From: Phycisphaerae bacterium
GTDB lineage: Bacteria > Planctomycetota > Phycisphaerae > UBA1845
DNA: 64,000 nt
Direction of reading: 5' to 3'
Assembly (NCBI GenBank): GCA_029260015.1
Contig: JAJDEB010000044.1
Span: forward strand, 1-64,000
Positions 12,528 through 36,780 of this stretch are shown here, one piece after another (position 1 is the first letter of the stretch; every line of letters starts with the position of its first letter). A model generated the notes under the pieces. It ran no database searches. It was not told the origin of the DNA and worked only from the letters and a program-made list of their open reading frames with translations. The position numbers were made by a program, and so were the translations under genes.

Positions 12528-12607
12528 CTGAGTGAACCCCGCGCGGCGGGACTCTCACTCGATGGCGACGCATGCGCAATACACAACGAGATGACCAGGA
12601 GAACCAT

Positions 12608-13174
12608 ATGCCAAGATTGAAAGCAGTAACTACCTCGGATGCGACGGGCCAAGCTCGTGAGCTTCTTGAAGGCGTCGAGAAAAGACTGGGGATGGCGCCG
12701 AACATTATGCGGACGATGGCAAACTCGCCGGCGGTGCTGGAGGCTTATCTCGCGTTTGGTGCGGCCCTCGGCAAGGGATCGTTATCGGCGAAACTTCGCG
12801 AGCAGATCGCTCTGGCGGTCGGTGAAGCCAATCAATGCAAATATTGCCTGGCCGCGCACTCGGCGCTTGGCAACAAGGCCGGTCTGAGTGAAGCGGAAGT
12901 CGAGGAGAGTCGCCGCGGCGTTTCATCCAACGCCAAGACTCAAGCCGCACTCGGATTCGCAAGGAAAGTCGTACGCGAGCGCGGCTGGGTTGGCAACGAT
13001 GACCTAGCAAGCTTGCGAACCGCCGGGTTCGATGACGGCGGGATAGCCGAAATCGTCGCGACGGTCGCGGTGAACATCTTCACCAACTATTTCAACCACG
13101 TCGCCGAGACGGTGGTCGATTTTCCCGAAGTCAGTGAGTTAAAGGTTGGTACCGAGTGCGCAAGCACCCAGTAG
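12608..13174 (+). CDS. carboxymuconolactone decarboxylase/AhpD-family protein
   Basis: The protein (about 188 residues from ATG 12608, preceded by AGGAG) belongs to the CMD/AhpD alkylhydroperoxidase-like family. The redox motif is NQCKYCLAAHSALG, a C-x2-C-x3-H centre, preceded by LREQIALAVGEAN, as in peroxidase-type members that reduce hydroperoxides with a thiol partner. It sits just upstream of the YHS protein and the arsenic cluster. CMD proteins are common next to arsenic and other stress genes. Substrate unknown. Confidence 0.88.
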   Translation: MPRLKAVTTSDATGQARELLEGVEKRLGMAPNIMRTMANSPAVLEAYLAFGAALGKGSLSAKLREQIALAVGEANQCKYCLAAHSALGNKAGLSEAEVEESRRGVSSNAKTQAALGFARKVVRERGWVGNDDLASLRTAGFDDGGIAEIVATVAVNIFTNYFNHVAETVVDFPEVSELKVGTECASTQ

Positions 13175-13204
13175 CGAGTTCTATTTTTTGAAAGGATAAA
13201 TGAG

Positions 13205-13771
13205 ATGAAGTTTTGTGCGTTGATTCTAACAGGAGTACTCCCTGCGATAGCGATTGCGCAGGGCTCGGGCACGGAGACTCACCCCACCGCGCTGGACGGG
13301 TACTGCGCGGTCAGCATCGTCAAGATGGACAAGCTGATCAAGGGAAGTCCGGCCCATTCTTCGGTCTATGATGGAAAGGAGTACAATTTTCCTTCCGTTG
13401 AGGCCAAGAAAATGTTTGACGAAAACCCGGCGGCTTTCGCTCCCGCATTGGGCGGCAATTGCGTCGTATGCAAAGTTGACGTCAAGAAAGACGTACCGGG
13501 CAAGCCGGAATTCCGTCGGGTCCATAACGGTCGTTTGTACCTCTTCCCATCTGAGGAGCCCCTCAAGACATTCATCGCCAATCCGGAAAAGTACGCCGAC
13601 GCCGACTTGGCGCTAAGCGGAATTTGTCCCGTCTGCAGAGTGGATGCAAAGAAGGAAGTGAAGGGCAAAGCGGACCTTGCCTGGGACTACAAAGCAACTC
13701 GCTACCTTTTTCCGGCGAAGGAGCAGCTCGATAAATTTCGGAAAAACCCCAAGCGATATGCGGTTAAATAG
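13205..13771 (+). CDS. secreted protein with three YHS-like domains
   Basis: A signal peptide (MKFCALILTGVLPAIAIAQG) is followed by three copies of a roughly 50-residue unit of the YHS type, a small metal-linked module found in copper and heavy-metal proteins. The units start at GYCAVSIVKMDKLIKG, NCVVCKVDVKKDVPG and ICPVCRVDAKKEVKG, and each continues to an F-P-S/A-x-E motif and an N-P-x-x-Y/F end. Repeats 2 and 3 have C-x-V-C or C-P-V-C pairs and repeat 1 has a single Cys. A GAAAGG site precedes the ATG. The location upstream of ArsM suggests periplasmic metal or metalloid binding, but this is inference. Confidence 0.8.
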   Translation: MKFCALILTGVLPAIAIAQGSGTETHPTALDGYCAVSIVKMDKLIKGSPAHSSVYDGKEYNFPSVEAKKMFDENPAAFAPALGGNCVVCKVDVKKDVPGKPEFRRVHNGRLYLFPSEEPLKTFIANPEKYADADLALSGICPVCRVDAKKEVKGKADLAWDYKATRYLFPAKEQLDKFRKNPKRYAVK

Positions 13772-13946
13772 GACACGTAGGGAACCGCTTTCTTAACGCC
13801 GGGCTGCGAGTCGCGTGGCGGTCGTCTGCTACGCGACTCTCCCGCCCCGGCAGGACGTTGTTGCGAGGCATCGTTTGGGCGCAATTGTGTCGCAGGAATC
13901 CGGCTGATGCCGCCGGAGAACACCTGAGAAGCGAAAGAGGTGATTT

Positions 13947-15164
13947 ATGGGATTGACTGTTGCGGAAAGCGTTGACGCGAATGCAACGGTGGACGGGAGC
14001 GTATCGGACGTCGAGCGGCACGTCGTTGAGCGATATGCACAGGCTGCTCGGACGGTGGAACCTGCATTGTGCTGTCCGGCATCCAGTTACGATCCAAAGC
14101 TTTTGGAAAAACTGCCCCCCGAGATCGTCGCTACCGATTACGGGTGCGGCGACCCTTCCACGCACGCAAAGTCCGGCGAAACGGTTCTTGATCTCGGGTC
14201 AGGGTCTGGCAAGGCTTGCTACATCTTGGCACAGACGGTCGGCCCTTCGGGACGAGTGATTGGCATCGACATGAACGACACGATGCTGGCACTGGCCCGG
14301 AAGTTCCAGAAGGAAATGGCTTGCAGAATTGGGTACGAAAACGTGCAGTTCATTAAAGCGCGCATACAGGATCTGGGGTTGGATCTGGAGCAGATGGAAG
14401 AGTGGTTGCGCAGTCATCCCATCACGGAGATGACGGGGATCGCCGCGTTTGAAAGCGAGTGCGACCGGCTGCGGCTCACTTCGCCAGCAGTCGAGTCCCA
14501 AAGCGTAGACGTTGTGGTTTCCAACTGCGTTCTGAATCTCGTTCGCCCCGCCGACAAGGTTCGCCTGTTCGGCGAGATTCATCGTGTGCTCAAGCGTGGC
14601 GGCCGGGCAGTGATTTCGGACATTGTTTGCGATGAGGAGCCGACGCAGGCAATTGTCAACGATCCCGAGCTTTGGAGCGGCTGCATCGCCGGTGCGTTTC
14701 GCGAGGATCGTTTTCTGGAGCACTTCGAAAAGGCCGGGTTCTACGGCGTGGAGATCGTCGCTCGTCAAGCGGAACCATGGCAGATTGTCGACGGAATTGA
14801 GTTCCGGTCCATGACCGTGCGGGCCTACAAAGGCAAGGAGGGTCCGTGTCTGGAACGCAACCAGGCAGTTATCTACAAGGGTCCGTGGAAACAGGTCCGC
14901 GACGACGACGGACACATCCTGCATCGTGGCCAGCGCATGGCCGTTTGCGACAAGACGCTACGAATTCTTACGGACCTCAAAGGCCCGTATGCGACTGACA
15001 TCATTTCGGTTCAGCCGCGGGACGAGGTTCCATTGGATACGGCTCGGCCATTTGATTGCCATAGAGTCAAGCTGCGTGATCCGCAAGAGACGAAGGGACA
15101 GGATTTCAGTGAAACATCTCTAGGTGAAGGCGGACCATGTTGCGACGGCGATCAGTGTTGTTGA
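13947..15164 (+). CDS. arsM: arsenite S-adenosylmethionine methyltransferase, arsenosugar-type
   Basis: The 405-residue protein methylates As(III) with S-adenosylmethionine, the entry step to methylarsenicals and arsenosugars. It carries the long form's N-terminal ALCCP and YGCGDP motifs, the SAM-binding LDLGSGSGKACY motif, and the two Cys that bind arsenic in ArsM proteins, here Cys194 (VSNCVLNL) and Cys246 (SGCIAGA). The C-terminal extension ends GPCCDGDQCC, a likely thiol cluster for holding metalloid. It heads the run ArsM, PiT transporter, ArsS and FNR-like reductase on one strand, with 40 bases to the next gene. Confidence 0.93.
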   Translation: MGLTVAESVDANATVDGSVSDVERHVVERYAQAARTVEPALCCPASSYDPKLLEKLPPEIVATDYGCGDPSTHAKSGETVLDLGSGSGKACYILAQTVGPSGRVIGIDMNDTMLALARKFQKEMACRIGYENVQFIKARIQDLGLDLEQMEEWLRSHPITEMTGIAAFESECDRLRLTSPAVESQSVDVVVSNCVLNLVRPADKVRLFGEIHRVLKRGGRAVISDIVCDEEPTQAIVNDPELWSGCIAGAFREDRFLEHFEKAGFYGVEIVARQAEPWQIVDGIEFRSMTVRAYKGKEGPCLERNQAVIYKGPWKQVRDDDGHILHRGQRMAVCDKTLRILTDLKGPYATDIISVQPRDEVPLDTARPFDCHRVKLRDPQETKGQDFSETSLGEGGPCCDGDQCC

Positions 15165-15204
15165 GACAACTTACCCTTGTGCGACGTCACAACGGAATTG
15201 AACG

Positions 15205-16344
15205 ATGACGCTGTTCATTCTCGCCCTTGCCGTCTTCTGGCTCGCTTACAGCAATGGTGCGAACGACAATTTCAAAGGCGTTGCTACGCTCTATGGAAGT
15301 GGGACGCTTACGTTTCGCTCGGCGCTTGGGTGGGCAACGTTAGCTACGCTTGCCGGAAGCGTGTTGTCGATCGCACTCGCAGGCTCACTCGCGAAATCCT
15401 TCAGTGGTAAGGGGCTCGTCCCGCCCGACATTTTGCAAAGCGGTTCACTACTGATCGCGGTCGCATCGGCGGGCGCGATAACGATTTTTCTGGCCACGAT
15501 TCTGGGCATGCCAACGTCAACGACGCACGCATTGACCGGCGCGCTGGCTGGCGTGGCAATCGTCGCAAGTCCCGACCGTTCGGGATTCACCAAGTTGCTG
15601 TCGGAGTTTCTAGTGCCCCTGCTAATCAGTCCGGTGATTGCGATCCTTGGCGCGTCGATACTCTATGTACTTTTTCACCGTGCGCGCCTCGCCCGTGGCA
15701 TCACACGCGAGACTTGCGTGTGCATCGGAAGGTGCCCACCGATACCCGTTCGGATGCAGGCAGATGGGGCAGCGTTTGTGGCCGTGCCCCTGGACGGCGG
15801 CCCCAGGTTTATGGTTGCAACTCAAGACGAGTGCGTTGAGCACTACGAGGGTAACGTCGTCGGGGTTAGCGCGCAGGCGGCCGTGGACGGCCTGCATTCC
15901 TTCAGCGGGCTCGCCGTTTGCTTTGCGCGGGCAGTAAACGACACACCTAAGATTGCCGCGCTACTCTTCGCGGCTGGAACAGCCGGAACCATCGGCGTCG
16001 GTTGGAAACTCGGTCTTGTAGCGGTGGCCATGGCGCTTGGCGGAATGCTCAGCGCCCGAAAGGTGGCCGAAACCATGAGCAAGCGAATTTCCAAATTGAA
16101 TTCGGGTCAGGGACTGACCAGCAGCCTAGTAACGGCCGGACTGGTTCTTATCGCGTCGCGGCTCGGTATGCCTGTCTCCACGACCCATGTCTCGTGTGGT
16201 TCGATCTTCGGCATCGGAATTGTTTCTGGGACGGCTCGTTGGAAAACGATCAGCCACATCTTGCTGGCCTGGATCACGACGCTGCCGATGGGCGCCATTC
16301 TCGGGGCCGGTGGATACTTGTTCATGACGCATCTTCGAGGTTGA
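15205..16344 (+). CDS. pit: PiT-family inorganic phosphate (arsenate?) transporter
   Basis: The 379-residue polytopic membrane protein has the duplicated PiT signature: YSNGANDNFKGVATLYGSG near residue 14 with GMPTSTTHALTGALAG at about 95, and the second copy CFARAVNDTPKIAALLF with GMPVSTTHVSCGSIFG. PiT carriers take up metal-phosphate with protons or sodium. Its place between ArsM and ArsS, five bases before ArsS, suggests a role in phosphate homeostasis during arsenic exposure or in moving arsenate. The family itself does not discriminate strongly. A short Cys-containing loop (TCVCIGRCPPIPV) in the middle is unusual. Confidence 0.93.
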   Translation: MTLFILALAVFWLAYSNGANDNFKGVATLYGSGTLTFRSALGWATLATLAGSVLSIALAGSLAKSFSGKGLVPPDILQSGSLLIAVASAGAITIFLATILGMPTSTTHALTGALAGVAIVASPDRSGFTKLLSEFLVPLLISPVIAILGASILYVLFHRARLARGITRETCVCIGRCPPIPVRMQADGAAFVAVPLDGGPRFMVATQDECVEHYEGNVVGVSAQAAVDGLHSFSGLAVCFARAVNDTPKIAALLFAAGTAGTIGVGWKLGLVAVAMALGGMLSARKVAETMSKRISKLNSGQGLTSSLVTAGLVLIASRLGMPVSTTHVSCGSIFGIGIVSGTARWKTISHILLAWITTLPMGAILGAGGYLFMTHLRG

Positions 16345-16348
16345 ACCA

Positions 16349-17341
16349 ATGAGTATTGCATTGAACATACTACTACCCGTTGTCGAGTCGGATGATTTCC
16401 AACGCCAGGTCGAGGCAACAGCAGGCACCGGGCTCTTTGCGCAAACACTTGAGACGATTCAAGTCAACATTGGACTTACCTGCGATCTTGCCTGCCGCCA
16501 TTGCCACGTCGAATCATCGCCGAAGCGGACGGAGCAAATGGACTGGTCGACAATGCTGCTCATCTTGCAGGCAGCCAAACGATCTGGCGCGGACCAACTT
16601 GACATAACGGGCGGTGCGCCTGAGATGAACCCCAACTTCCGCCGGCTTGTAGTCCTTGCCCGTTTCATGGATTTGCAAGTGACGGTGCGAACGAATCTCA
16701 CGATCATGCTTCGCGACGCGTACACCGATTTGCCTGAATTCTACCGCGATCAACGTGTTCATCTGATCGCGTCGTTGCCGTGTTACCTTTCAGAAAACGT
16801 CGATCGGCAACGTGGCATGAGGGTGTACGATCGAAGTGTCCAAGTAATCCGGCATCTGAACGCCGTCGGTTACGGCACCGAGTCGGACCTTCCGCTCGAT
16901 CTGATCTACAACCCCGGAGGGCCAGCGATTCCGCCGGATCAGAATCAACTCGAAGAGACCTATCGCGGCGAACTCGAACAGCGATTCGGCATCCGATTCA
17001 GCCGACTCTACACGATCACCAATATGCCCATCGGCCGGTTCCTGCACGACCTTCGTCGTGACGGCCAGGACGAGCAATACTTGCAGTTGCTGCGCGAGTC
17101 GTTCAATCCCGCGACGCTAGACGGGCTAATGTGTCGCCGCCAAGTTCATGTAAGCTGGGACGGAACTCTGCACGATTGCGACTTCAACTACGCTCTTGGG
17201 ATGCCAACGGATGATGGAACACCGAGGCATATTCGCGACTTTGATGGGGAAGCGCTAACGCACCGGCGCATCGTGACGGGTGATCATTGTTTCGGTTGTA
17301 CGGCCGGACATGGGTCTTCGTGCGTGGGAGCGCTGGCATGA
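16349..17341 (+). CDS. arsS: arsenosugar biosynthesis radical SAM protein ArsS
   Basis: ArsS is the radical SAM enzyme thought to add a deoxyadenosyl group to dimethylarsenic on the way to arsenosugars. The 330-residue protein has the [4Fe-4S] motif C-x3-C-x2-C at Cys45, Cys49 and Cys52 (TCDLACRHCH), DITGGAPEMNP, the DUF3641 C-terminal region (LPLDLIYNPGGPAIPP), and the terminal Cys cluster HCFGCTAGHGSSC. Some family members carry selenocysteine, but here every position reads as Cys. The gene starts five bases after the PiT stop, and its own stop overlaps the next start (ATGA), so it is in an operon. Confidence 0.95.
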   Translation: MSIALNILLPVVESDDFQRQVEATAGTGLFAQTLETIQVNIGLTCDLACRHCHVESSPKRTEQMDWSTMLLILQAAKRSGADQLDITGGAPEMNPNFRRLVVLARFMDLQVTVRTNLTIMLRDAYTDLPEFYRDQRVHLIASLPCYLSENVDRQRGMRVYDRSVQVIRHLNAVGYGTESDLPLDLIYNPGGPAIPPDQNQLEETYRGELEQRFGIRFSRLYTITNMPIGRFLHDLRRDGQDEQYLQLLRESFNPATLDGLMCRRQVHVSWDGTLHDCDFNYALGMPTDDGTPRHIRDFDGEALTHRRIVTGDHCFGCTAGHGSSCVGALA

Positions 17342-18168
17342 AGAACGACAACAGACTGCCGAACGGTTGGGACAACTGCACACTCATCGAGCGCCAGGAT
17401 TTGGCAAATGATCTGGCAGTGTTGCGAGTCAAGCCCGATCGCGAGTTGTTTGGATTCCGTGCCGGGCAATACGCGGTAATCGGCCTGCCCGCGTCCGCGC
17501 CTCGTTTTGAACACTCCGAACCCGACGATGATGAAGCTCCAACCGCGAGCAAACTCATTCGCCGAGCCTACTCTATCGCGTCTTCCTCGAAAACGAATGA
17601 ATACGTCGAACTTTATGTCACTCTGGTCCGGTCCGGCGAATTGACACCCCGGCTCTGGCTATTGCGAACGGGTGATCGACTTTGGCTCAGCCCGAGCGCG
17701 AAGGGCCATTTCACGATGGACGATTTACCGCAGGACAAAAACGTGGTGCTGATTGGGACCGGAACCGGCCTTGCTCCGTACATCTCTATGATTCGGGAGC
17801 ATCACCGCTGCAACTCTGGTCGGACATTCGTCGTTGTTCACGGCGCACGACATGTCCGGGAATTGGGTTACCGCGACGAGCTCGAAGTCCTCGATCGAGA
17901 TTGCGGTACGTTGGTGTATGTCCCAACAGTAAGCCGCCCGGAGCCCGAAGAAGGCTGGCGCGGTCACGTGGGTCGTGTTCAGTCCGTGTTCGCTGATGGG
18001 ACGATCGATGCCGCGCTGGATGGCTCAATGTCGCCTTCCGCGACGCATGCTTTCGTCTCGGGAAACCCCGAAATGGTCGAAGACATTCAACGACTACTCC
18101 TTGGCCAAGGATACACGCTACACAACGCACGATTGCCGGGGACGTTGCACGTCGAGCGATATTGGTGA
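17338..18168 (+). CDS. ferredoxin-NADP+ reductase-like flavoprotein
   Basis: The 276-residue protein belongs to the FNR superfamily, which moves electrons between NAD(P)H and ferredoxin or similar partners. FAD binding is shown by RRAYSIASS (R-x-Y-S motif) and NAD(P)H binding by LIGTGTGLAPYISMI; the C-terminus LHVERYW is typical of bacterial FNRs. The start overlaps the ArsS stop by four bases. A radical SAM enzyme needs a reductant, so this protein plausibly feeds electrons to ArsS. That pairing is inference from coupling, not established for this organism. Confidence 0.9.
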   Translation: MKNDNRLPNGWDNCTLIERQDLANDLAVLRVKPDRELFGFRAGQYAVIGLPASAPRFEHSEPDDDEAPTASKLIRRAYSIASSSKTNEYVELYVTLVRSGELTPRLWLLRTGDRLWLSPSAKGHFTMDDLPQDKNVVLIGTGTGLAPYISMIREHHRCNSGRTFVVVHGARHVRELGYRDELEVLDRDCGTLVYVPTVSRPEPEEGWRGHVGRVQSVFADGTIDAALDGSMSPSATHAFVSGNPEMVEDIQRLLLGQGYTLHNARLPGTLHVERYW

Positions 18169-18208
18169 CGCAATCAACACAACCTAAGAATGGAAGAAGG
18201 TTCGCACT

Positions 18209-19522
18209 ATGCCAACATCAGAAGATTCCCAGCATGATCTCTTTCAGGACGCGATTACGCGGCTTACGACCGCAGCAGCGCTTTCCGAGATCGAGGATGA
18301 AGCCGTGCAGCGTCTTCGTCACCCCAAAGCGATTCTGGAGGTATCAATCCCCATTCGGATGGACGATGGGACGCTTCGTGTGTTTACGGGATATCGCGTA
18401 CGTCATGACGACACCCGTGGTCCAACGAAGGGCGGCATCCGATACCATCCGGACGTCAACTTGAGCGAGGTAAAGGCCCTCGCCTTCTGGATGACCTGCA
18501 AGTGTGCCGTCGTGGGGATTCCATACGGCGGTGCGAAAGGTGGCGTAATCGTTAACCCGAAGGAGTTGTCTCCTCTGGAACTGGAGCGGCTCAGTCGGGG
18601 TTTCATCGACCAGATTGCTGATTTCATTGGCCCCGAAACCGATGTGCCGGCACCCGATGTGTATACCAACGCAAGGATCATGGGCTGGATGATGGATGAG
18701 TTCTCCAAGCTCCGGCGTCAACGTACTCCCGCCGTGATAACGGGCAAACCGGTGTCGCTGGGCGGGAGCCTCGGTCGCGACGATGCGACAGGGCGCGGTG
18801 CCTACTTCTGCATCAAGGAACTTGAGCGATTGCGCAAGTGGCAGCCGAGGGAAATTCGGGTGGCCATTCAAGGGTTTGGAAACGCCGGCCAACACGTCGC
18901 CCAACTGCTGCACAACGACGGGTACCGCATCGTCGCGGTCAGCGATTCGCGCGGAGGAGTCTACCGGCCCGAGGGTTTCGACATCGCAAGCTTGATTCAG
19001 GCCAAGAATGAGACGCGACAAGTGAAGGCGGTGTACTGTGACGGTTCGGTTTGCGAGGCGGTCAAAGCTGACACCATCTCCAACGAGGACCTGCTGGAAC
19101 TCGACGTCGACCTTCTGATCCCAGCGGCCATGGAAAACCAGATCACGGCAGACAACGCCGCGAACATCAAAGCCCCGGTCATCGTCGAAATCGCAAATGG
19201 CCCGACCACGAGCGATGGCGATGCAGTGTTGGTTGCGAAGAATACGCTCGTCGTCCCCGACATTCTTGCCAACGCGGGCGGTGTAACCGTAAGTTACTTC
19301 GAGTGGGTGCAAAACAAAGCTGGGTATTACTGGCCCCTGGAGGAGGTGCACACCAAACTCCACGCCATTATGGTGCGCGAATTCAATGCAATCTACGAGT
19401 TGATGTTGAAAAAAAGCATCGACATGCGCACCGCCGCCTATGTACACGCGCTAAATCGGATCGGCGAAGCGATAGAAGCACAGGGCACTAGCCGGTACTT
19501 CAGCAACGAGATAGCGAAGTGA
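18209..19522 (+). CDS. gdhA: Glu/Leu/Phe/Val dehydrogenase (glutamate dehydrogenase)
   Basis: The 437-residue hexameric-type dehydrogenase interconverts glutamate with 2-oxoglutarate and ammonia. Substrate-binding GPTKGGIRYHP and the catalytic block MTCKCAVVGIPYGGAKGG are present, with the dinucleotide fold VAIQGFGNAGQHVAQLL in the second half. ELERLSRGFIDQIADFIGPE and LVVPDILANAGGVTVSYFEW also match. The GAAGG ribosome site lies at a normal distance from ATG 18209. The gene is 40 bases after the FNR gene on the same strand and may be co-transcribed, but no link to arsenic is known. Confidence 0.95.
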   Translation: MPTSEDSQHDLFQDAITRLTTAAALSEIEDEAVQRLRHPKAILEVSIPIRMDDGTLRVFTGYRVRHDDTRGPTKGGIRYHPDVNLSEVKALAFWMTCKCAVVGIPYGGAKGGVIVNPKELSPLELERLSRGFIDQIADFIGPETDVPAPDVYTNARIMGWMMDEFSKLRRQRTPAVITGKPVSLGGSLGRDDATGRGAYFCIKELERLRKWQPREIRVAIQGFGNAGQHVAQLLHNDGYRIVAVSDSRGGVYRPEGFDIASLIQAKNETRQVKAVYCDGSVCEAVKADTISNEDLLELDVDLLIPAAMENQITADNAANIKAPVIVEIANGPTTSDGDAVLVAKNTLVVPDILANAGGVTVSYFEWVQNKAGYYWPLEEVHTKLHAIMVREFNAIYELMLKKSIDMRTAAYVHALNRIGEAIEAQGTSRYFSNEIAK

Positions 19523-19588
19523 TTACCTATCTTCCAGGCGAGGCGAATTGGATGGAAACAGCAGCAATTATGCAGGAGCTCAGCAAGC

Positions 19589-20809
19589 ATGCCATCAAAC
19601 CGGGTTGAATTTGTCGGATCACAGGGCGAAAAACTTGCCGCGCGATTGGATCTGCCCATCGGTCCCCCACGAGCGTATGGCCTGTTCGCACATTGTTTTA
19701 CCTGTTCGAAAGACGTCCTAGCGGTATCGCGCATTGCTCGCGAACTGTCAGCGCGTGGGATCGCGGTCCTGCGATTCGATTTCACGGGCCTTGGGCACAG
19801 TGAAGGCGAGTTTGCCAATACCAACTTTTCATCCAATATCGAAGATCTGGTTCTCGCGGCCGCTTGGCTCCGCGCCGAGCACGAAGCTCCAACGCTTTTG
19901 ATTGGACACAGTTTGGGCGGCGCTGCTGTATTGGCAGCCGCGGGTTCCGTTCCAGAGGCAGTCGCGGTAGTGACTATCGGTGCGCCGGAAGATCCGAATC
20001 ACGTTAAAGAGCTTCTGGTAGGCACTGGCACCAAATTCAGAGAATCAGGCGAAGCAGACGTGGAAATCGCCGGGCGCCGATTCACCATTCGCAAGCAATT
20101 CATTGACGATTTGCAAGGCCACAGCCTAGAGGATCGAATACGCGACCTTGGCAAGGCTTTGTTGGTGTTGCACTCTCCGGATGACGTCGTTGTTAGCATT
20201 GAGAATGGCGAACGAATCTTTGAGGTGGCGAAGCATCCGAAAACTTTCGTCTCACTCGACAAAGCAGACCATCTGCTTACACGACGTGAAGACGCCACCT
20301 ACGTTGCAGAGGTGCTCGCTGCATGGACCAGCCGGTATCTTCCCAATCTTGACCAGCAAGAACCCTCCGATGTTCCGACTGGAGTGGTCGTTGTCGATGA
20401 GTCCGGCTCCGGCAAGTTCACGCAGCGTATTCGAGCGGGGCGCCACGAATTCGTCGCGGATGAGCCAGCGTCGGTCGGCGGCAATGACGACGGACCCACG
20501 CCTTACGATCTCTTGCTCGCCGCACTGGGGACCTGCACATCAATGACCCTGAGAATGTATGCGGAACGGAAGGAGCTTGCGCTCGATCACGTCGCGGTTC
20601 GTCTGCGCCATAGTAAAATACACGCTAAGGATTGCGAATCTTGCGAAGCAAGCGATGGTTGGGTCGACCACATCGATCGTGAAATCACGATTGAAGGCGC
20701 CGTCGATGAGGCCCAGCGACGACGGCTCTTGGAAATCGCTGATCGCTGTCCGGTGCACCGTACGCTGCATGCTGAAGTCCGGATTTCAACTCGTGAGGCG
20801 GGGGAATAG
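19589..20809 (+). CDS. alpha/beta-hydrolase-OsmC fusion protein
   Basis: Residues about 1-255 form an alpha/beta hydrolase with the nucleophile elbow LLIGHSLGGAAVL and HSPDDVVVS with a later His near KADHLL. Residues about 265-406 form an OsmC/Ohr-like domain that reduces organic hydroperoxides, with its peroxidatic Cys in GTCTSMTLRMYAERK and the second Cys in ADRCPVHRTL. This two-domain architecture is known in several phyla. AGGAG precedes ATG 19589. It is probably part of oxidative or electrophile defence together with the CMD protein and the decayed FMN reductase that follows. Confidence 0.93.
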   Translation: MPSNRVEFVGSQGEKLAARLDLPIGPPRAYGLFAHCFTCSKDVLAVSRIARELSARGIAVLRFDFTGLGHSEGEFANTNFSSNIEDLVLAAAWLRAEHEAPTLLIGHSLGGAAVLAAAGSVPEAVAVVTIGAPEDPNHVKELLVGTGTKFRESGEADVEIAGRRFTIRKQFIDDLQGHSLEDRIRDLGKALLVLHSPDDVVVSIENGERIFEVAKHPKTFVSLDKADHLLTRREDATYVAEVLAAWTSRYLPNLDQQEPSDVPTGVVVVDESGSGKFTQRIRAGRHEFVADEPASVGGNDDGPTPYDLLLAALGTCTSMTLRMYAERKELALDHVAVRLRHSKIHAKDCESCEASDGWVDHIDREITIEGAVDEAQRRRLLEIADRCPVHRTLHAEVRISTREAGE

Positions 20810-25858: not shown

Positions 25859-27031
25859 CTATGGATTCTCAACCATGGCCGCGCTGTAACCGTTGGCCTT
25901 CACGGCCTCAACGATTTGATCGGCAACAAGCGGGTTTTCGGCGGCGTACCGAACCACCGCCGTCTTCGTTGGATAGTCGACCTCAACAAACTCGACATCC
26001 GGGAGCTTCGCCAGCGCCGCGCGCAGTCCGGATGCGCAGCCGTCGCAAGTCATACCTTCGATATGGAATCTAGCCGTGGTGAGGCGAACATCTGGCGCGA
26101 GAGCGCTCTCTGATATCGGCGCGGCGAACAGGTGACCGACATAGTTCGGAAAGAACACGAACGCACCGACCAAGCCCGTTGCCGTCCACAGCATGATCCG
26201 GCTGAACGCGCGCATCCTCCGGTTGGGAGCCGCACAGGCAGAGTTCGGGGCGCATGTCTCCCGACGGAAGTAGACGGTGTAGAACCCGATACCGAGCATG
26301 GCCATCGCGCCTGTGATGAAATAGGGGCGGTACGCCTCAAAGAACCCGGCCACTCCCGCCGCTGACACGCCGAAAGCGATCAGAACCAGCGGGAGCCAGC
26401 AGCAGGCCGACGAAAGGATCGCGGCCAGTACCGACCCGCTCGCCGCAATCACACCAGCCCGACGACGGGTCACTCCAGTGCCGAGGGTGGCAGGTTGCGT
26501 CGCGCAACAATCGTCGCGTACCTCGTCCGCGAATCCCGTCTGCGCCGCACCCGACGCGCAGCAGTCCTTCTGGTCGCCGACGCCGTGTTCTACCGTAGTT
26601 TCCTCGCGGCCAGCAAGTTTGAACCCTTGGTCCACAACTTCCTGCACACTCTTCAGACAGCATCCACCCATGGGGTTCGTGTATTCGCAGCGGCAACCCG
26701 GCCCCTTCATGTCGGCCTTGATGCTGTCCAACACCGTCGATTCGCCCGTCCGACGAATCTCATCGTGGATCGCCTCGATGCTATGAGCGAAGCAAAAGCA
26801 CAACGGACGAGCGGGCTCGGTTTCTTTCAAGCCGAACCGGACTGACAGGTCGGATTTCACGAAAGTGCCGGCGTTGCCCGTGCCGAAGTACACCGTCTCG
26901 CATTCCGGCGTCAGGCAGACATGGTACGGCTCGTCCCCGATGTCCGCGAGGCGATCGGCGCGCAGTAGACTTTCGAGCGTCACGCGCTTGACCTTGCGGC
27001 CCGGACGGTTGCATGAAGGACAATTCTGCAT
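25859..27031 (-). CDS. merTP: CopZ-like/MerT/MerP fusion: mercury or metal transport protein
   Basis: The 390-residue protein fuses three modules. Residues about 1-130 resemble the Cys-rich N-terminal domain of CopZ-type chaperones (NCPSCNRPG, CLTPECETVYFG, CFCFAHSIEAI, GCRCEYTNPMGGCC). Residues about 190-310 are MerT-like, with the Cys-Cys pair in the first helix (SSACCWLPLVLIAFG, about 208-210) and two more helices. Residues about 316-388 are a MerP/HMA domain with GMTCDGCASG. MerT and MerP carry Hg(II) into the cell for reduction. A mid-linker holds further CC pairs (DCCASGA, DCCATQ). It is the last gene of a merR-led operon. A mercuric-reductase-like protein lies at 30441. Confidence 0.9.
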   Translation of the reverse strand: MQNCPSCNRPGRKVKRVTLESLLRADRLADIGDEPYHVCLTPECETVYFGTGNAGTFVKSDLSVRFGLKETEPARPLCFCFAHSIEAIHDEIRRTGESTVLDSIKADMKGPGCRCEYTNPMGGCCLKSVQEVVDQGFKLAGREETTVEHGVGDQKDCCASGAAQTGFADEVRDDCCATQPATLGTGVTRRRAGVIAASGSVLAAILSSACCWLPLVLIAFGVSAAGVAGFFEAYRPYFITGAMAMLGIGFYTVYFRRETCAPNSACAAPNRRMRAFSRIMLWTATGLVGAFVFFPNYVGHLFAAPISESALAPDVRLTTARFHIEGMTCDGCASGLRAALAKLPDVEFVEVDYPTKTAVVRYAAENPLVADQIVEAVKANGYSAAMVENP

Positions 27032-28768: not shown

Positions 28769-30460
28769 ATGATTGCAGTCAACACTAAAGCCGTCAGCGC
28801 TTCGGTCGAGCCTTTACCGAAATCAAGAATCCGAATGTCAATTGCGTCCCAACTACATCGTCGAGCAGGGCTTATCAAAGCAATCTCGATCATCCTGATT
28901 ATCGTTTCGCTTCTCGTGGTGATTCGGGCGCTGCCGGTGGATCGATTGATCGACATGGTGAAGTTGAAGGCGGATGGGCTTGGGTTCTGGGGTCCGATCG
29001 CCCTTGGAGCGGCATATGTGATCGCCGCGTTGGCATTTTTTCCTGGTTCAGCTCTAACGCTCGCAGCAGGCGCGGTCTTCGGGCTCGTCTGGGGAACGGT
29101 GACAGTCTCCGTTGCTGCTTCAACGTCCGCCGCATTGGCATTTCTGATCGCTCGTTATCTTGCCCGCGACAAGGTCGCGCGTCAGGCCCAAAGATTCCCA
29201 AAATTTCAGGCCATCGATCGGGCCATTGGCAACGGTGGATGGAAGATCATTGCGATGCTTCGATTGTCACCGGCTGTACCGTTTAGCTTGGGCAACTATT
29301 TATTCGGCCTTACCTCCATCCGGTTCTGGCCCTACGTCTTGGCCAGTTGGCTGTTCATGCTCCCGGGCACATTCATGTACGTCTACTTGGGACACATCGG
29401 TACCGAAGGTCTGCGGTCCGCGGCAGGTGCGCAGAGAGGCAAAACACTCGGCGAATGGGCGCTTCTAGGCGTTGGATTGTTGGCCACAGTTGCGGTTACA
29501 GTTTACGTCACTCGATTGGCGCGCAAGGCGCTTCGTGAGCAGACCAAAATCGAAGAGCAACCGACCAATACGTTGCGTGCCGAAGAGTTGGCGGAGTCGC
29601 CCGCCACCGATGCTGCCGGGCGCTCGTGGAGCACAATCGTGCTCCCGATCATCGCCGTTGTGATGCTCGGCATAGCCGCATGCGCACAGTTGCAGGCCGA
29701 CACACTTAAGGGCTTGTTCGGGCCGCCGCCGGTCACCCTGCAAGAGACCTATCAGCGGCAATCGGATGGTCCGAAGGTTGACCATGCTCAATTCGATACC
29801 TTGCTTCGGAGACATGTCGACGCCGATGGATGGGTTGACTATGCAGGGTTGCAGAAAGAAGCGGCAACGCTGGATGCGTACATTTCGGAAGTCGCAAATG
29901 CGCCGTTCGCGGACTTGGGTCGCGACGAAAAACTGTCGCTGCTCATCAACGCTTACAACGCCTTTACGCTTCGTTTGATTCTTGATCACTACCCCGTCAA
30001 GTCGATCAAGGACATTCCCGGTGCGAAGCGCTGGGACGATAAGCGCTGGCGTATCGGAACGATGACGCTCAGTCTGAATCAGATTGAGCACGAACAAATC
30101 AGACCGAAGTTCGCTGAACCGCGCATACACTTTGCCCTGGTCTGCGCCGCCATTGGCTGTCCGAAGCTACGCAACGAGGCCTTTCAAGCGGACCGCATCG
30201 AAAAGCAACTGGAGGACCAGGCTCACTACGTGCATTTGCACGATCGATGGTTTGATTATGAACCTGGCGCCAAGGAAGTCCATCTGACGAAACTCTACGA
30301 TTGGTATGGATCGGACTTCGAGCAGGCAGCGGGCTCCGTCGTCCAGTTTGCCGCTCGTTATTCCGCGCCGCTTAAGGCGGCATTGGATGCGGGTATGAAA
30401 CCCAAAATCAAATGGCTCGACTACGATTGGACACTAAACGATGCAAAAAACAAGCGTTGA
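28769..30460 (+). CDS. TVP38/TMEM64 (VTT) membrane protein fused to a DUF547 domain
   Basis: The 563-residue protein has a basic N-terminus, a first helix (AISIILIIVSLLVVIRAL) and a VTT/SNARE-associated domain (about 70-235; FFPGSALTLAAGAVFGLVWG, RLSPAVPFSLGNYLFGL, PGTFMYVYLGH), then a further helix near 290-310 and a DUF547 domain (about 335-550; LLINAYNAFTLRLILDHYP, HFALVCAAIGCPKLRNEAF, LHDRWFDYEP). VTT proteins are lipid or small-molecule membrane proteins of uncertain role; DUF547 is uncharacterised. Its end overlaps the next gene by 20 bases. In many bacteria a VTT protein is paired or fused with the same mercuric-reductase-like flavoprotein that follows here. Confidence 0.9.
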   Translation: MIAVNTKAVSASVEPLPKSRIRMSIASQLHRRAGLIKAISIILIIVSLLVVIRALPVDRLIDMVKLKADGLGFWGPIALGAAYVIAALAFFPGSALTLAAGAVFGLVWGTVTVSVAASTSAALAFLIARYLARDKVARQAQRFPKFQAIDRAIGNGGWKIIAMLRLSPAVPFSLGNYLFGLTSIRFWPYVLASWLFMLPGTFMYVYLGHIGTEGLRSAAGAQRGKTLGEWALLGVGLLATVAVTVYVTRLARKALREQTKIEEQPTNTLRAEELAESPATDAAGRSWSTIVLPIIAVVMLGIAACAQLQADTLKGLFGPPPVTLQETYQRQSDGPKVDHAQFDTLLRRHVDADGWVDYAGLQKEAATLDAYISEVANAPFADLGRDEKLSLLINAYNAFTLRLILDHYPVKSIKDIPGAKRWDDKRWRIGTMTLSLNQIEHEQIRPKFAEPRIHFALVCAAIGCPKLRNEAFQADRIEKQLEDQAHYVHLHDRWFDYEPGAKEVHLTKLYDWYGSDFEQAAGSVVQFAARYSAPLKAALDAGMKPKIKWLDYDWTLNDAKNKR

Positions 30461-33765: not shown

Positions 33766-35826
33766 ATGTTAGACAACGCTTCGGTATCGGTCATCATTCC
33801 TGCGCTCAACGAGGAGCAGGCCATCGCAGAGGTGCTGAACGCGATTCCAAAATGGGTCGACGGCGTAATCGTTGTTGACAATGGGTCCACCGATCAGACC
33901 GCCGCCATCGCAAAACGTCACGGAGCACGAGTAGTTCTTGAGCCGTTGCGCGGATACGGTGCGGCTTGCCTTGCCGGAATCGCAGCCAGTTCTGACTCAG
34001 AGATTCTCGTGTTTCTCGACGGGGACTTCAGTGACCATCCGGAACAAATTGTGCATCTGGTTGAGCCAATAGTGCGCGGCGATGCCGATCTTGCTATCGG
34101 GTCTCGCGTTCAAGGGTGCCGCGATTACGGCGCTCTCACCCTTCAACAACGCGGGGGCAACGCACTCGCCTGCCTCCTTATCCGCACGCTCTGGGGGCAC
34201 CGGTACACCGACCTGGGACCTTTTCGTGTAGTGCGCAGGACCGCGCTTAGCTGCCTTCGAATGGACGACCTGACGTACGGATGGACTATTCAGATGCAAA
34301 TTCGCGCCATCCGCGCCGGCTTACGAATACTCGAAGTCCCAGTGGATTATCGTCGGCGCATTGGACGATCGAAGATCTCTGGAACGACACGAGGCGTGAT
34401 CGGAGCGAGCATCAAGATTCTTTCGACAGTGATTCGGGAACGATTGCACCCCACGACAGTGAGCGACGATCAGGTTTGCGGCGAGCACCTCATCGTTTTC
34501 ACCCGCTACCCCGAACCCGGATTGACAAAAACACGTTTGATTCCCGCGCTGGCTCCTGAACGTGCCGCTGACCTGCAACGGGCAATGACGATTCAGGCTC
34601 TTCGGTCGACGGATCGCCTGCGATTGATCCGCGACGTGTCCATCGAAGTCCGCTTTGCGGGCGGAGATGAATCGCGCATGGCCGCCACGTTTGGCGACCA
34701 GCATACGTACCTGCCCCAAAGTTGTGGGGACCTCGGCGCTCGCATGCATCATGCGTTCCGTGAAGCCTTCGTCCGTGGATCGGAACGGGTGGTTGTCATT
34801 GGGAGCGACTGTCCGGAACTCGATGTCGAGATCATCAGCGAGGCGTTTGATGCACTCCGCAGCCATGATTGTGTAATCGGCCCCTCGGACGACGGCGGGT
34901 ACTACCTCATTGGGTTCAAAAGCCTCTGCCGACAAGTCTTCGAAGGCATCACATGGGGTTCGGCACAGGTGTTTGAACAGACGCAGCGGCAGGCGATCGC
35001 GGCTGATCTGGCGATTCACAGACTCAGGGTGCTTACAGACGTGGACGAGCCGAAGGACTTGCGTGTGTGGGAGCGATATCGCCGGCCGAGGATTTCGGTC
35101 ATCATCCCTGCGATCAACGAATCGCAGACTATCGCACGGGCGATCGAGAGTGCATCCGTCGGCCCAGACGTTGAAGTGATAGTCGTCGACGGAGGCAGCG
35201 TTGACAACACGCCGCAGATTGCCCGCGCCATGGGTGCGCGCGTCGTCGGTTCTGCGGCCGGCCGCGCCCATCAGATGAACGTAGGCGCCGCCGCCGCGCG
35301 CGGCTCGATTCTCCTGTTCCTGCACGCCGACACGACTCTGCCGATTGGATTTCAGCGCCAAGTTTGTGAAGTTCTGGCTCGCCCCAAAGTCAGCGCCGGA
35401 GCTTTTCAACTGCGAATCGCCTCGGCGAGCTGGGCGTTTCGCTGGATCGAGACGTTCGTGCGATTTCGTTCGACGATATTTCAGAGTCCCTATGGCGACC
35501 AGGCCATTTTTGTAAACCCGGCGACGTTTCGTCAGGCGGGCAGTTTTCCAGACTGGCCGGTTATGGAAGACTACGAACTCGTTCAAAGACTCCGCCGCCT
35601 CGGCCGGATTGCAATCGCCCCGATGGCGGTGACGACGTCCGCGCGTCGTTGGCTGGCCAACGGAGTGTGGCGAACGACGCTCATGAATCAAGCGTGCATC
35701 GTGGCAAGGCGTTTGGGCGTATCTCCCGAGCGCTTGGCCGGGTGGCGGGGGCGACGCGACCAAATAGAAAATGCATCGGCGCCTTCGCCGGACGAGTATT
35801 CGACATCGTTCGCACCCAAGACGTAG
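33766..35826 (+). CDS. three-domain glycosyltransferase: GT2 - DUF2064 - GT2
   Basis: The 686-residue protein joins three usually separate units. Residues about 5-235 are a DPM1-like GT2 (SVIIPALNEEQAIAEVL, VDNGSTDQTAA, FLDGDFSDHPEQ). Residues about 239-435 are a DUF2064/TIGR04282 nucleotidyltransferase-like domain (LIVFTRYPEPGLTKTRLIPA, VIGSDCPELD, GPSDDGGYYLIG). Residues about 442-665 are a second GT2 of the TIGR04283 type (ISVIIPAINESQTIARAIE, VDGGSVDNTPQ, FLHADTTLP, SPYGDQAIFV). The last two are known neighbours or fusions in many bacteria, and adding a DPM1-like domain gives a single envelope-glycan enzyme. It starts two bases after the GT-C gene. Confidence 0.93.
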   Translation: MLDNASVSVIIPALNEEQAIAEVLNAIPKWVDGVIVVDNGSTDQTAAIAKRHGARVVLEPLRGYGAACLAGIAASSDSEILVFLDGDFSDHPEQIVHLVEPIVRGDADLAIGSRVQGCRDYGALTLQQRGGNALACLLIRTLWGHRYTDLGPFRVVRRTALSCLRMDDLTYGWTIQMQIRAIRAGLRILEVPVDYRRRIGRSKISGTTRGVIGASIKILSTVIRERLHPTTVSDDQVCGEHLIVFTRYPEPGLTKTRLIPALAPERAADLQRAMTIQALRSTDRLRLIRDVSIEVRFAGGDESRMAATFGDQHTYLPQSCGDLGARMHHAFREAFVRGSERVVVIGSDCPELDVEIISEAFDALRSHDCVIGPSDDGGYYLIGFKSLCRQVFEGITWGSAQVFEQTQRQAIAADLAIHRLRVLTDVDEPKDLRVWERYRRPRISVIIPAINESQTIARAIESASVGPDVEVIVVDGGSVDNTPQIARAMGARVVGSAAGRAHQMNVGAAAARGSILLFLHADTTLPIGFQRQVCEVLARPKVSAGAFQLRIASASWAFRWIETFVRFRSTIFQSPYGDQAIFVNPATFRQAGSFPDWPVMEDYELVQRLRRLGRIAIAPMAVTTSARRWLANGVWRTTLMNQACIVARRLGVSPERLAGWRGRRDQIENASAPSPDEYSTSFAPKT

Positions 35827-35985
35827 ACGTGTTCGTCCTGCGTGCCGAATTGGACTCTGTGGCGTGCCAGGGTGTTGCCTCATAGGCCGGCGACGGAGCA
35901 CGGCAAGTTGAACGGAATTGAATTTGCCACCTTGTCCATTTCATGGATGGCATCAGAACGGTTTTGCAAACAATGAAAGGGGCAA

Positions 35986-36780
35986 ATGCTCATGAATTCC
36001 GATAACCACCAAGACTCCATACCACCGTCCTTCTTGCCTAAATCGCGCATTGGGCGAGGATTCGTTGCCATTTGGTGCGTCGTCGTCGCCGGCCTCGTCG
36101 TGCAGGTCACCCGCCAATTCTTCTTGTCGAATGAGGAAACTAAAGGGCCCAGTATCACAGATGGTCGATTGCATAGCCGTCCGATTGTAGAACGTGACGG
36201 GCGTCGGCTCCTGTGGGCACGCGATGATTCGGATTCCGATGAATTTGAATGGTTTGACGTCACAGATTCGACAATCGATCCCGAACGGTTTCGGCACGGA
36301 ATCGGCAAGGACACGATTGCGTCAATCGATGCCCCACAGTTCGTCGAGGCCGACGATCTGCGACTACAAGAGCACGGAATCGGTGAGAACGACTTGATCA
36401 TTGGTTTCTTGAACGGTGGGGATGCGCGAGCCTATCCTCTCAAGATTTTAAATAGGCATGAGTTGGTTAATGACACGGTGGGCGGTAAGCCCGTAACCGT
36501 CGGATGGTGACCGCTGGACCAACTGTCCGTAGTCTACGGACGCGAAATTGATGACAAAGCGGTAACGTTCGGCACGACGGGCTACACGATGAACAACGTG
36601 TTTGTCCTTTACGATCGGGAGTCCGAATCAATCTGGTATCCGACCGGTGACAAGCACCTGGAGGCAACATCTGGTGCCAAGCAAGGCACACGCATAGAGT
36701 TCCTGGACAAGCCCACGCCCATGCCATTGGGCCAGTGGCGGAATGCCCATCCGAAAACAAGAGTACTCCTGCCGATGTAG
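35986..36780 (+). CDS. DUF3179-family protein, candidate selenoprotein (in-frame UGA)
   Basis: The frame from ATG 35986 (or ATG 35992, better spaced from AAAGGGG) runs without frameshift to TAG 36778-36780, with one TGA at 36508-36510 (codon 175). Before it lie a membrane anchor (GFVAIWCVVVAGLVVQVT) and GDARAYPLKILNRHELVNDT with PVTVGW. After it lie PLDQLSVVYGRE, TMNNVFVLYDRESESIWYPT and TPMPLGQWRNAHPKTRVLLP, all family-conserved. DUF3179 proteins normally have C-P-L-C just here, so the TGA takes the place of the first Cys. A 17-base hairpin starts 14 bases after it. I therefore call it one gene read through as selenocysteine, 264 residues. Nonsense mutation is the alternative. Confidence 0.75.
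36525..36541 (+). promoter_or_regulatory. possible bacterial SECIS hairpin after the UGA
   Basis: GTCCGT (36525-36530) and ACGGAC (36536-36541) form a perfect six-pair stem with the five-base loop AGTCT, starting 14 bases after TGA 36508-36510. The loop has G at its second position and lies about 21 bases from the UGA, within the range remembered for bacterial SECIS elements. It is also coding sequence (LSVVYGR), so chance cannot be excluded. Confidence 0.5.

Follow-up and report, generated by a model that had tools for sequence, protein, structure and literature searches.

The UGA codon at positions 36508-36510 of a 64,000-nucleotide stretch of Phycisphaerae bacterium DNA (the window) is, from comparative genomics, all but certainly decoded as selenocysteine (Sec). 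We base this conclusion on the location of the UGA at the Cys column of the DUF3179 family, the Sec machinery of the genome, selection on the sequence downstream, a covarying SECIS hairpin and the agreement of that hairpin with the bSECIS criteria. In the mechanism that we propose, SelB loaded with Sec-tRNA(Sec) would bind the mRNA at the hairpin (36525-36541), with the ribosome placing Sec at residue 175 and continuing to the TAG stop.

An in-frame UGA at the Cys column of DUF3179

The frame at 35986-36780 (+ strand) comprises 264 sense codons and a terminal TAG (36778-36780), with the TGA at residue 175 (local residues VGW-U-PLD) as its sole interruption. A re-reading of the sequence confirmed these coordinates, which were given in a first-pass annotation of the window. 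That annotation placed the start at ATG 35986, a point that probably needs a small correction: a Shine-Dalgarno-like AAAGGGG (35976-35982, +) lies 9 nt upstream of ATG 35992 but only 3 nt from ATG 35986. Because of its better spacing, ATG 35992 is the likelier start, giving a gene at 35992-36780 (+) and a protein that is probably 262 amino acids long.

Protein similarity had been described as running through the TGA with the frame unchanged. Consistent with this, the match to Pfam DUF3179 (PF11376) covers residues 108-261 (127.6 bits, E 8.4e-37) and spans the TGA in a single frame. The score lies above the Pfam gathering cut-off of 27, placing the protein in the family, and the match takes in positions 1-147 of the 292 in the model, the first half of the domain. 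In many long homologues, the DUF3179 seed profile has an additional, second match; the long proteins appear from their sequences to consist of two repeats, with the window protein corresponding to the first repeat only. NCBIfam contained no model matching these proteins, searches of PDB sequences returned no relative with a solved structure, and the AlphaFold model of the window protein (pLDDT 49) was too poor for use. Residues 25-42 (36058-36111, +) form a hydrophobic stretch that is a probable membrane anchor or export signal. Judging from the translation, the product is probably a membrane-anchored, exported, single-repeat DUF3179 protein.

If the TGA were a true stop, or if a pseudogene or sequencing error split the gene, the cell would make a 174-residue N-terminal part or nothing. 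Mechanical ORF calling does end this gene at 36510, and TGA serves as an ordinary stop elsewhere in the window, where it terminates 10 of 25 genes. However, the genome contains a DUF3179 paralogue whose corresponding codon is also TGA, and this TGA recurs in at least 35 loci of independent genomes. Since independent genomes share the TGA, sequencing error, which the first-pass annotation had listed as a concern, is excluded. The sequence past the TGA also behaves as coding sequence. For codons +15 to +88, dN/dS was 0.10 in comparison with one close relative (L030) and 0.065 with another (L028), values that reveal purifying selection and thus indicate that the sequence 3′ of the UGA is kept as protein. 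Together with the covariation of the hairpin described below, these observations leave a premature end with a negligible probability; the shared codon and the downstream selection refute a true stop, a pseudogene and a sequencing error alike.

The homologue alignment showed both Cys and UGA at the family column, as had been anticipated for a site of Cys-to-Sec exchange. Of the rows in the loci read, 85 had UGA at the column and 28 had Cys, a few first-repeat rows had Ser or Asn, and the remaining letters derived mostly from the second repeat of long proteins. Our choice of loci favored those bearing TGA, so the ratio of 85:28 should not be taken as a frequency. The TGA aligned to the same column in 35 loci encoding U-P-L-x (UPLx), in a W-U-P-S-E-Q subfamily and in one W-U-H-L-C protein. 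Within the taxonomic family, 29 of 51 genomes contain DUF3179, and nearly all copies have exactly one TGA; across a sample of the phylum, DUF3179 occurs both with and without TGA.

The genome from which the window derives, a 5.36 Mb draft that is 94.6% complete, encodes all four of the genes (selA, selB, selC and selD) for which a check had been proposed. We detected selC as a tRNA-Sec with anticodon TCA (68.7 bits against an Rfam cut-off of 47), selA (E 7.5e-148), an adjoining selB (E 1.8e-104) and selD (E 2.2e-110). SelA was found in 47 of the 51 genomes of the taxonomic family. The selD gene (G000:C30:1007939-1008862) itself contains UGA, in the motif ANCAGUAGK, with an inverted repeat just 3′. 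SelD proteins with a UGA in their own gene are a familiar form.

Could the UGA instead be read as an ordinary amino acid, through reassignment of the code or read-through as Trp? Recoded lineages are known in nature, and the codon preceding the UGA is the Trp codon TGG. However, the use of TGA to end 10 of the 25 window genes argues against a recoded genome, and homologues have Cys at this column, neither Trp nor Gly. The complete Sec machinery and a hairpin that accompanies UGA and is missing from Cys homologues also speak against this reading, which we reject as having almost no chance of being correct.

The SECIS hairpin

The hairpin that accompanies the UGA is, by comparative analysis and by the bSECIS criteria, a bacterial SECIS element at 36525-36541 (+). 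Its 17 bases (GTCCGT-AGTCT-ACGGAC) begin 14 nt 3′ of the TGA, and positions 36525-36530 (+15 to +20 after the UGA) pair with 36536-36541 (+26 to +31) around the loop AGUCU (36531-36535; +21 to +25). The first-pass annotation had called this structure SECIS-like; covariation and UGA-linked pairing now identify it as a genuine SECIS.

Pairing follows the UGA. All six pairs were complete in 69 of 85 UGA loci, compared with 1 of 28 Cys loci. At the true offset, 92% of cells were paired, versus 29-60% when the hairpin was moved by up to 12 nt. Sixteen UGA loci did not form the full set of six pairs in the fixed register; in several of them (the UVIC and PNY-U types), the hairpin is slightly offset. 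In four DUF3179 loci encoding U-V-I-C or U-V-V-C (L099, L100, L103 and L106), the hairpin is displaced by one or two bases relative to the others. The W-U-P-S-E-Q proteins (L029, L033, L052 and L063), a second DUF3179 subfamily, have this SECIS with an unchanged offset. A Cys-containing DUF3179 gene (L073, 1501-2391) retains all six pairs with the loop TGCGT; it is possibly a recent Sec-to-Cys change.

We examined covariation in 39 diverse sequences, a set that omits two loci with shifted hairpins (L098 and L101). Each of the six pairs was changed on both sides, with 62 such cells versus 16.8 after shuffling. The covariation score was 0.744 compared to 0.222 for shuffled alignments; none of 500 shuffles reached it, and no slid version of the hairpin came near. 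Of 81 rows, 79 had G at loop position 2 and 78 had T at position 3.

The codons that form the hairpin are constrained beyond what the protein needs. Among UPLx genes, Ser at +6 was encoded by TCC in 33 of 33 cases and Gly at +10 by GGA in 33 of 34, while the background for each codon is 18%. Two UPLx members have Ala at +6, with a matching change in the other arm (GCC/GGC in L058 and GCT/AGC in L037). Synonymous differences were also reduced in codons +1 to +12, with pS of 0.20-0.50 in eight comparisons versus 0.60-0.86 elsewhere in the gene.

The folding energy of the hairpin was unexceptional (z -0.36, no better than shuffles); the case rests on comparative evidence. Published bSECIS rules specify a loop of 3-9 nt, a stem of 4-16 bp, G in loop positions 1-2, a spacing of 16-37 nt and an MFE of -7.5 or lower (PMC13188914). 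The window hairpin conforms on the four criteria, with a loop of 5, a stem of 6, the loop G, a spacing of 20 and an MFE of -10.3. It shares with the consensus the N-G-U-N-N loop, the location 16-37 nt past the UGA and the short GC-rich stem; there is no notable difference, its sequence departing from others as is usual between families. When we searched the genome with a covariance model of the hairpin, the only significant matches were the two DUF3179 genes. A third match (G000:C46:137850, E 0.3) had no homology worth pursuing and was attributed to chance. An Rfam scan of 36400-36700 yielded nothing relevant and one chance match, and the hairpin fits no Rfam family.

A Sec-using branch within a known family

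Two reviews (PMC9312934, PMC13188914) count DUF3179 among the predicted selenoprotein families, with the motif UxxC/T, and NCBI uses the product name "DUF3179 domain-containing (seleno)protein", so the label that the first-pass annotation mentioned does exist. For DUF3179, PMC13188914 refers to Zhang and Gladyshev 2007 (Olavius algarvensis symbiont). The window protein resembles the listed proteins in its Pfam family, its Sec column and its use of UGA with a bacterial SECIS. It differs in having UxxD, without Cys or Thr at +3, in matching half of the domain and in belonging to Planctomycetota, within a clade whose sampled members include no Cys form. With canonical CPLC proteins, it shares the Pfam family, the HE..ND motif and the column where they have Cys and it has Sec; unlike them, it has no second Cys, and its SECIS pairs were, as noted above, nearly absent from Cys genes.

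A tree built from 114 domains placed the window protein inside a 37-member UPLx clade (SH-aLRT 99) in which all 37 members have UGA and none has Cys. Mapping the UGA label on the whole tree required about 5 changes, compared with 27 when labels were shuffled. The second Cys of C-P-L-C is replaced throughout this clade by A, V, D or S. The nearest relatives, L028 and L030 (67 and 75% identity), have U-P-L-D like the window, and the two named relatives that we found are Planctomycetota MAGs. The first-pass annotation had proposed that replacement of the second Cys by Asp leaves a single selenium in the active site, and the clade bears this out, since the partner Cys is gone across it and the window protein has no other Cys outside the membrane anchor. 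As its sole Cys lies in the N-terminal hydrophobic stretch, Sec175 is predicted to have no intramolecular partner.

From these sequences, what is new is a UxxD/A/V/S branch that always uses Sec in our sample, has half of the Pfam domain and has no partner Cys. Since the 2026 review (PMC13188914) assigns proteins with different Sec motifs to separate subfamilies, we regard this branch as a new variation within a known family. We found no mention of the branch, its strict use of Sec or its half-length domain in the open-access literature on DUF3179. Because standard gene calling ends an ORF at UGA, many such genes have probably been deposited as truncated or split proteins, and the covariance model of the window SECIS can find truncated DUF3179 selenoprotein genes.

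Possible function and the arsenic-type neighborhood

DUF3179 proteins are widespread, and no activity is known for the family. The absence of a Cys form and of a partner Cys in the sampled branch points to lone-selenol chemistry and narrows the search for a reaction. The most conserved polar residues of the DUF3179 set are H158, E159, N162, D163 and U175. The motif H158-E159-L-V-N162-D163 (36457-36474, +) is the most conserved polar one, and its residues are probable active-site partners of residue 175. By sequence, Sec175 is the only reactive chalcogen outside the probable anchor and lies near these residues. We somewhat favor a one-selenol redox or metalloid-binding enzyme; as the protein has no second Cys or Sec with which to form an intramolecular bond, such an enzyme would need an external thiol or substrate.

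One version of this activity would be a thiol-dependent peroxidase or reductase of the cell envelope, with Sec175 reducing (hydro)peroxides or disulfides at the expense of an external thiol and with no special link to arsenic. Redox enzymes with a lone Sec are common, most UPLx members outside the window's own clade are not beside arsenic genes, and the window holds a peroxidase-related gene and a gene of the FAD disulfide-reductase family. However, the conserved H-E-x-x-N-D set is to our knowledge not a peroxidase motif, and we consider this function a reasonable possibility that falls somewhat short of even likelihood.

In another version, Sec175 would bind or transform arsenic or mercury species within an enzyme or carrier for metalloids or heavy metals that acts with nearby arsenosugar-type genes. 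Directly upstream of the DUF3179 gene is a fusion of GT2, TIGR04282 and TIGR04283 domains (33766-35826, +), an arsenosugar-type glycosyltransferase by its profile matches; NCBI names TIGR04282 and TIGR04283 for arsenosugar biosynthesis. TIGR04283 was directly upstream of DUF3179 in all three sampled members of the UPLD clade (the window, L137 and L138). In L138, a run in one direction contains a YHS (seleno)protein family gene, a Pit transporter, ArsS, DUF547, chorismate mutase/prephenate dehydrogenase, TIGR04283 and DUF3179. Genes of the ArsS/arsenosugar type occur both in L138 and in the window, where they lie up to ~22 kb apart: an ArsM-like methyltransferase (13947-15164, +), a Pit transporter and an ArsS-family radical SAM protein (TIGR04167; 16349-17341, +) are encoded 18-22 kb upstream of DUF3179. 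The window also encodes a VTT + DUF547 protein (28769-30460, +) and a MerT/CopZ fusion. Against a metalloid role, the association is confined to three related loci, the wider clade has no such neighborhood, and ArsS in the window is 18 kb from DUF3179. We consider this function less likely than not.

TIGR04283 was near DUF3179 at only one of the other family loci examined (L151). A role in metalloid chemistry is thus plausible within the window's own clade but finds no support outside it. That the substrate in this small clade is tied to the neighboring arsenic-type gene set is a tentative suggestion. More doubtful is the broader proposal that UPLx proteins form an envelope-protein branch of their own with an obligatory, lone Sec, which in the window's lineage takes part in arsenic or metalloid chemistry with the ArsS/TIGR04283 genes; if true, it would provide the first testable reaction for a family without known activity. 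We found no description in the open-access literature of DUF3179 as part of an ArsS/arsenosugar neighborhood, and the arsenic-type gene set offers a concrete hypothesis for DUF3179 function.

Two other features of the window's gene content were observed. The arsenic/selenium-type run at 12572-20809 encodes, in addition to the ArsM-like, Pit and ArsS proteins, a peroxidase-related enzyme, a YHS (seleno)protein family member, a ferredoxin-NADP reductase-like protein, glutamate dehydrogenase and an OsmC-related (seleno)protein-like domain. The MerT/CopZ gene, on the opposite strand (25859-27031, -), joins a CopZ-type domain, MerT and an HMA domain in one fusion and is related to families with selenoprotein members, and a similar gene is found near the DUF3179 gene in L139.
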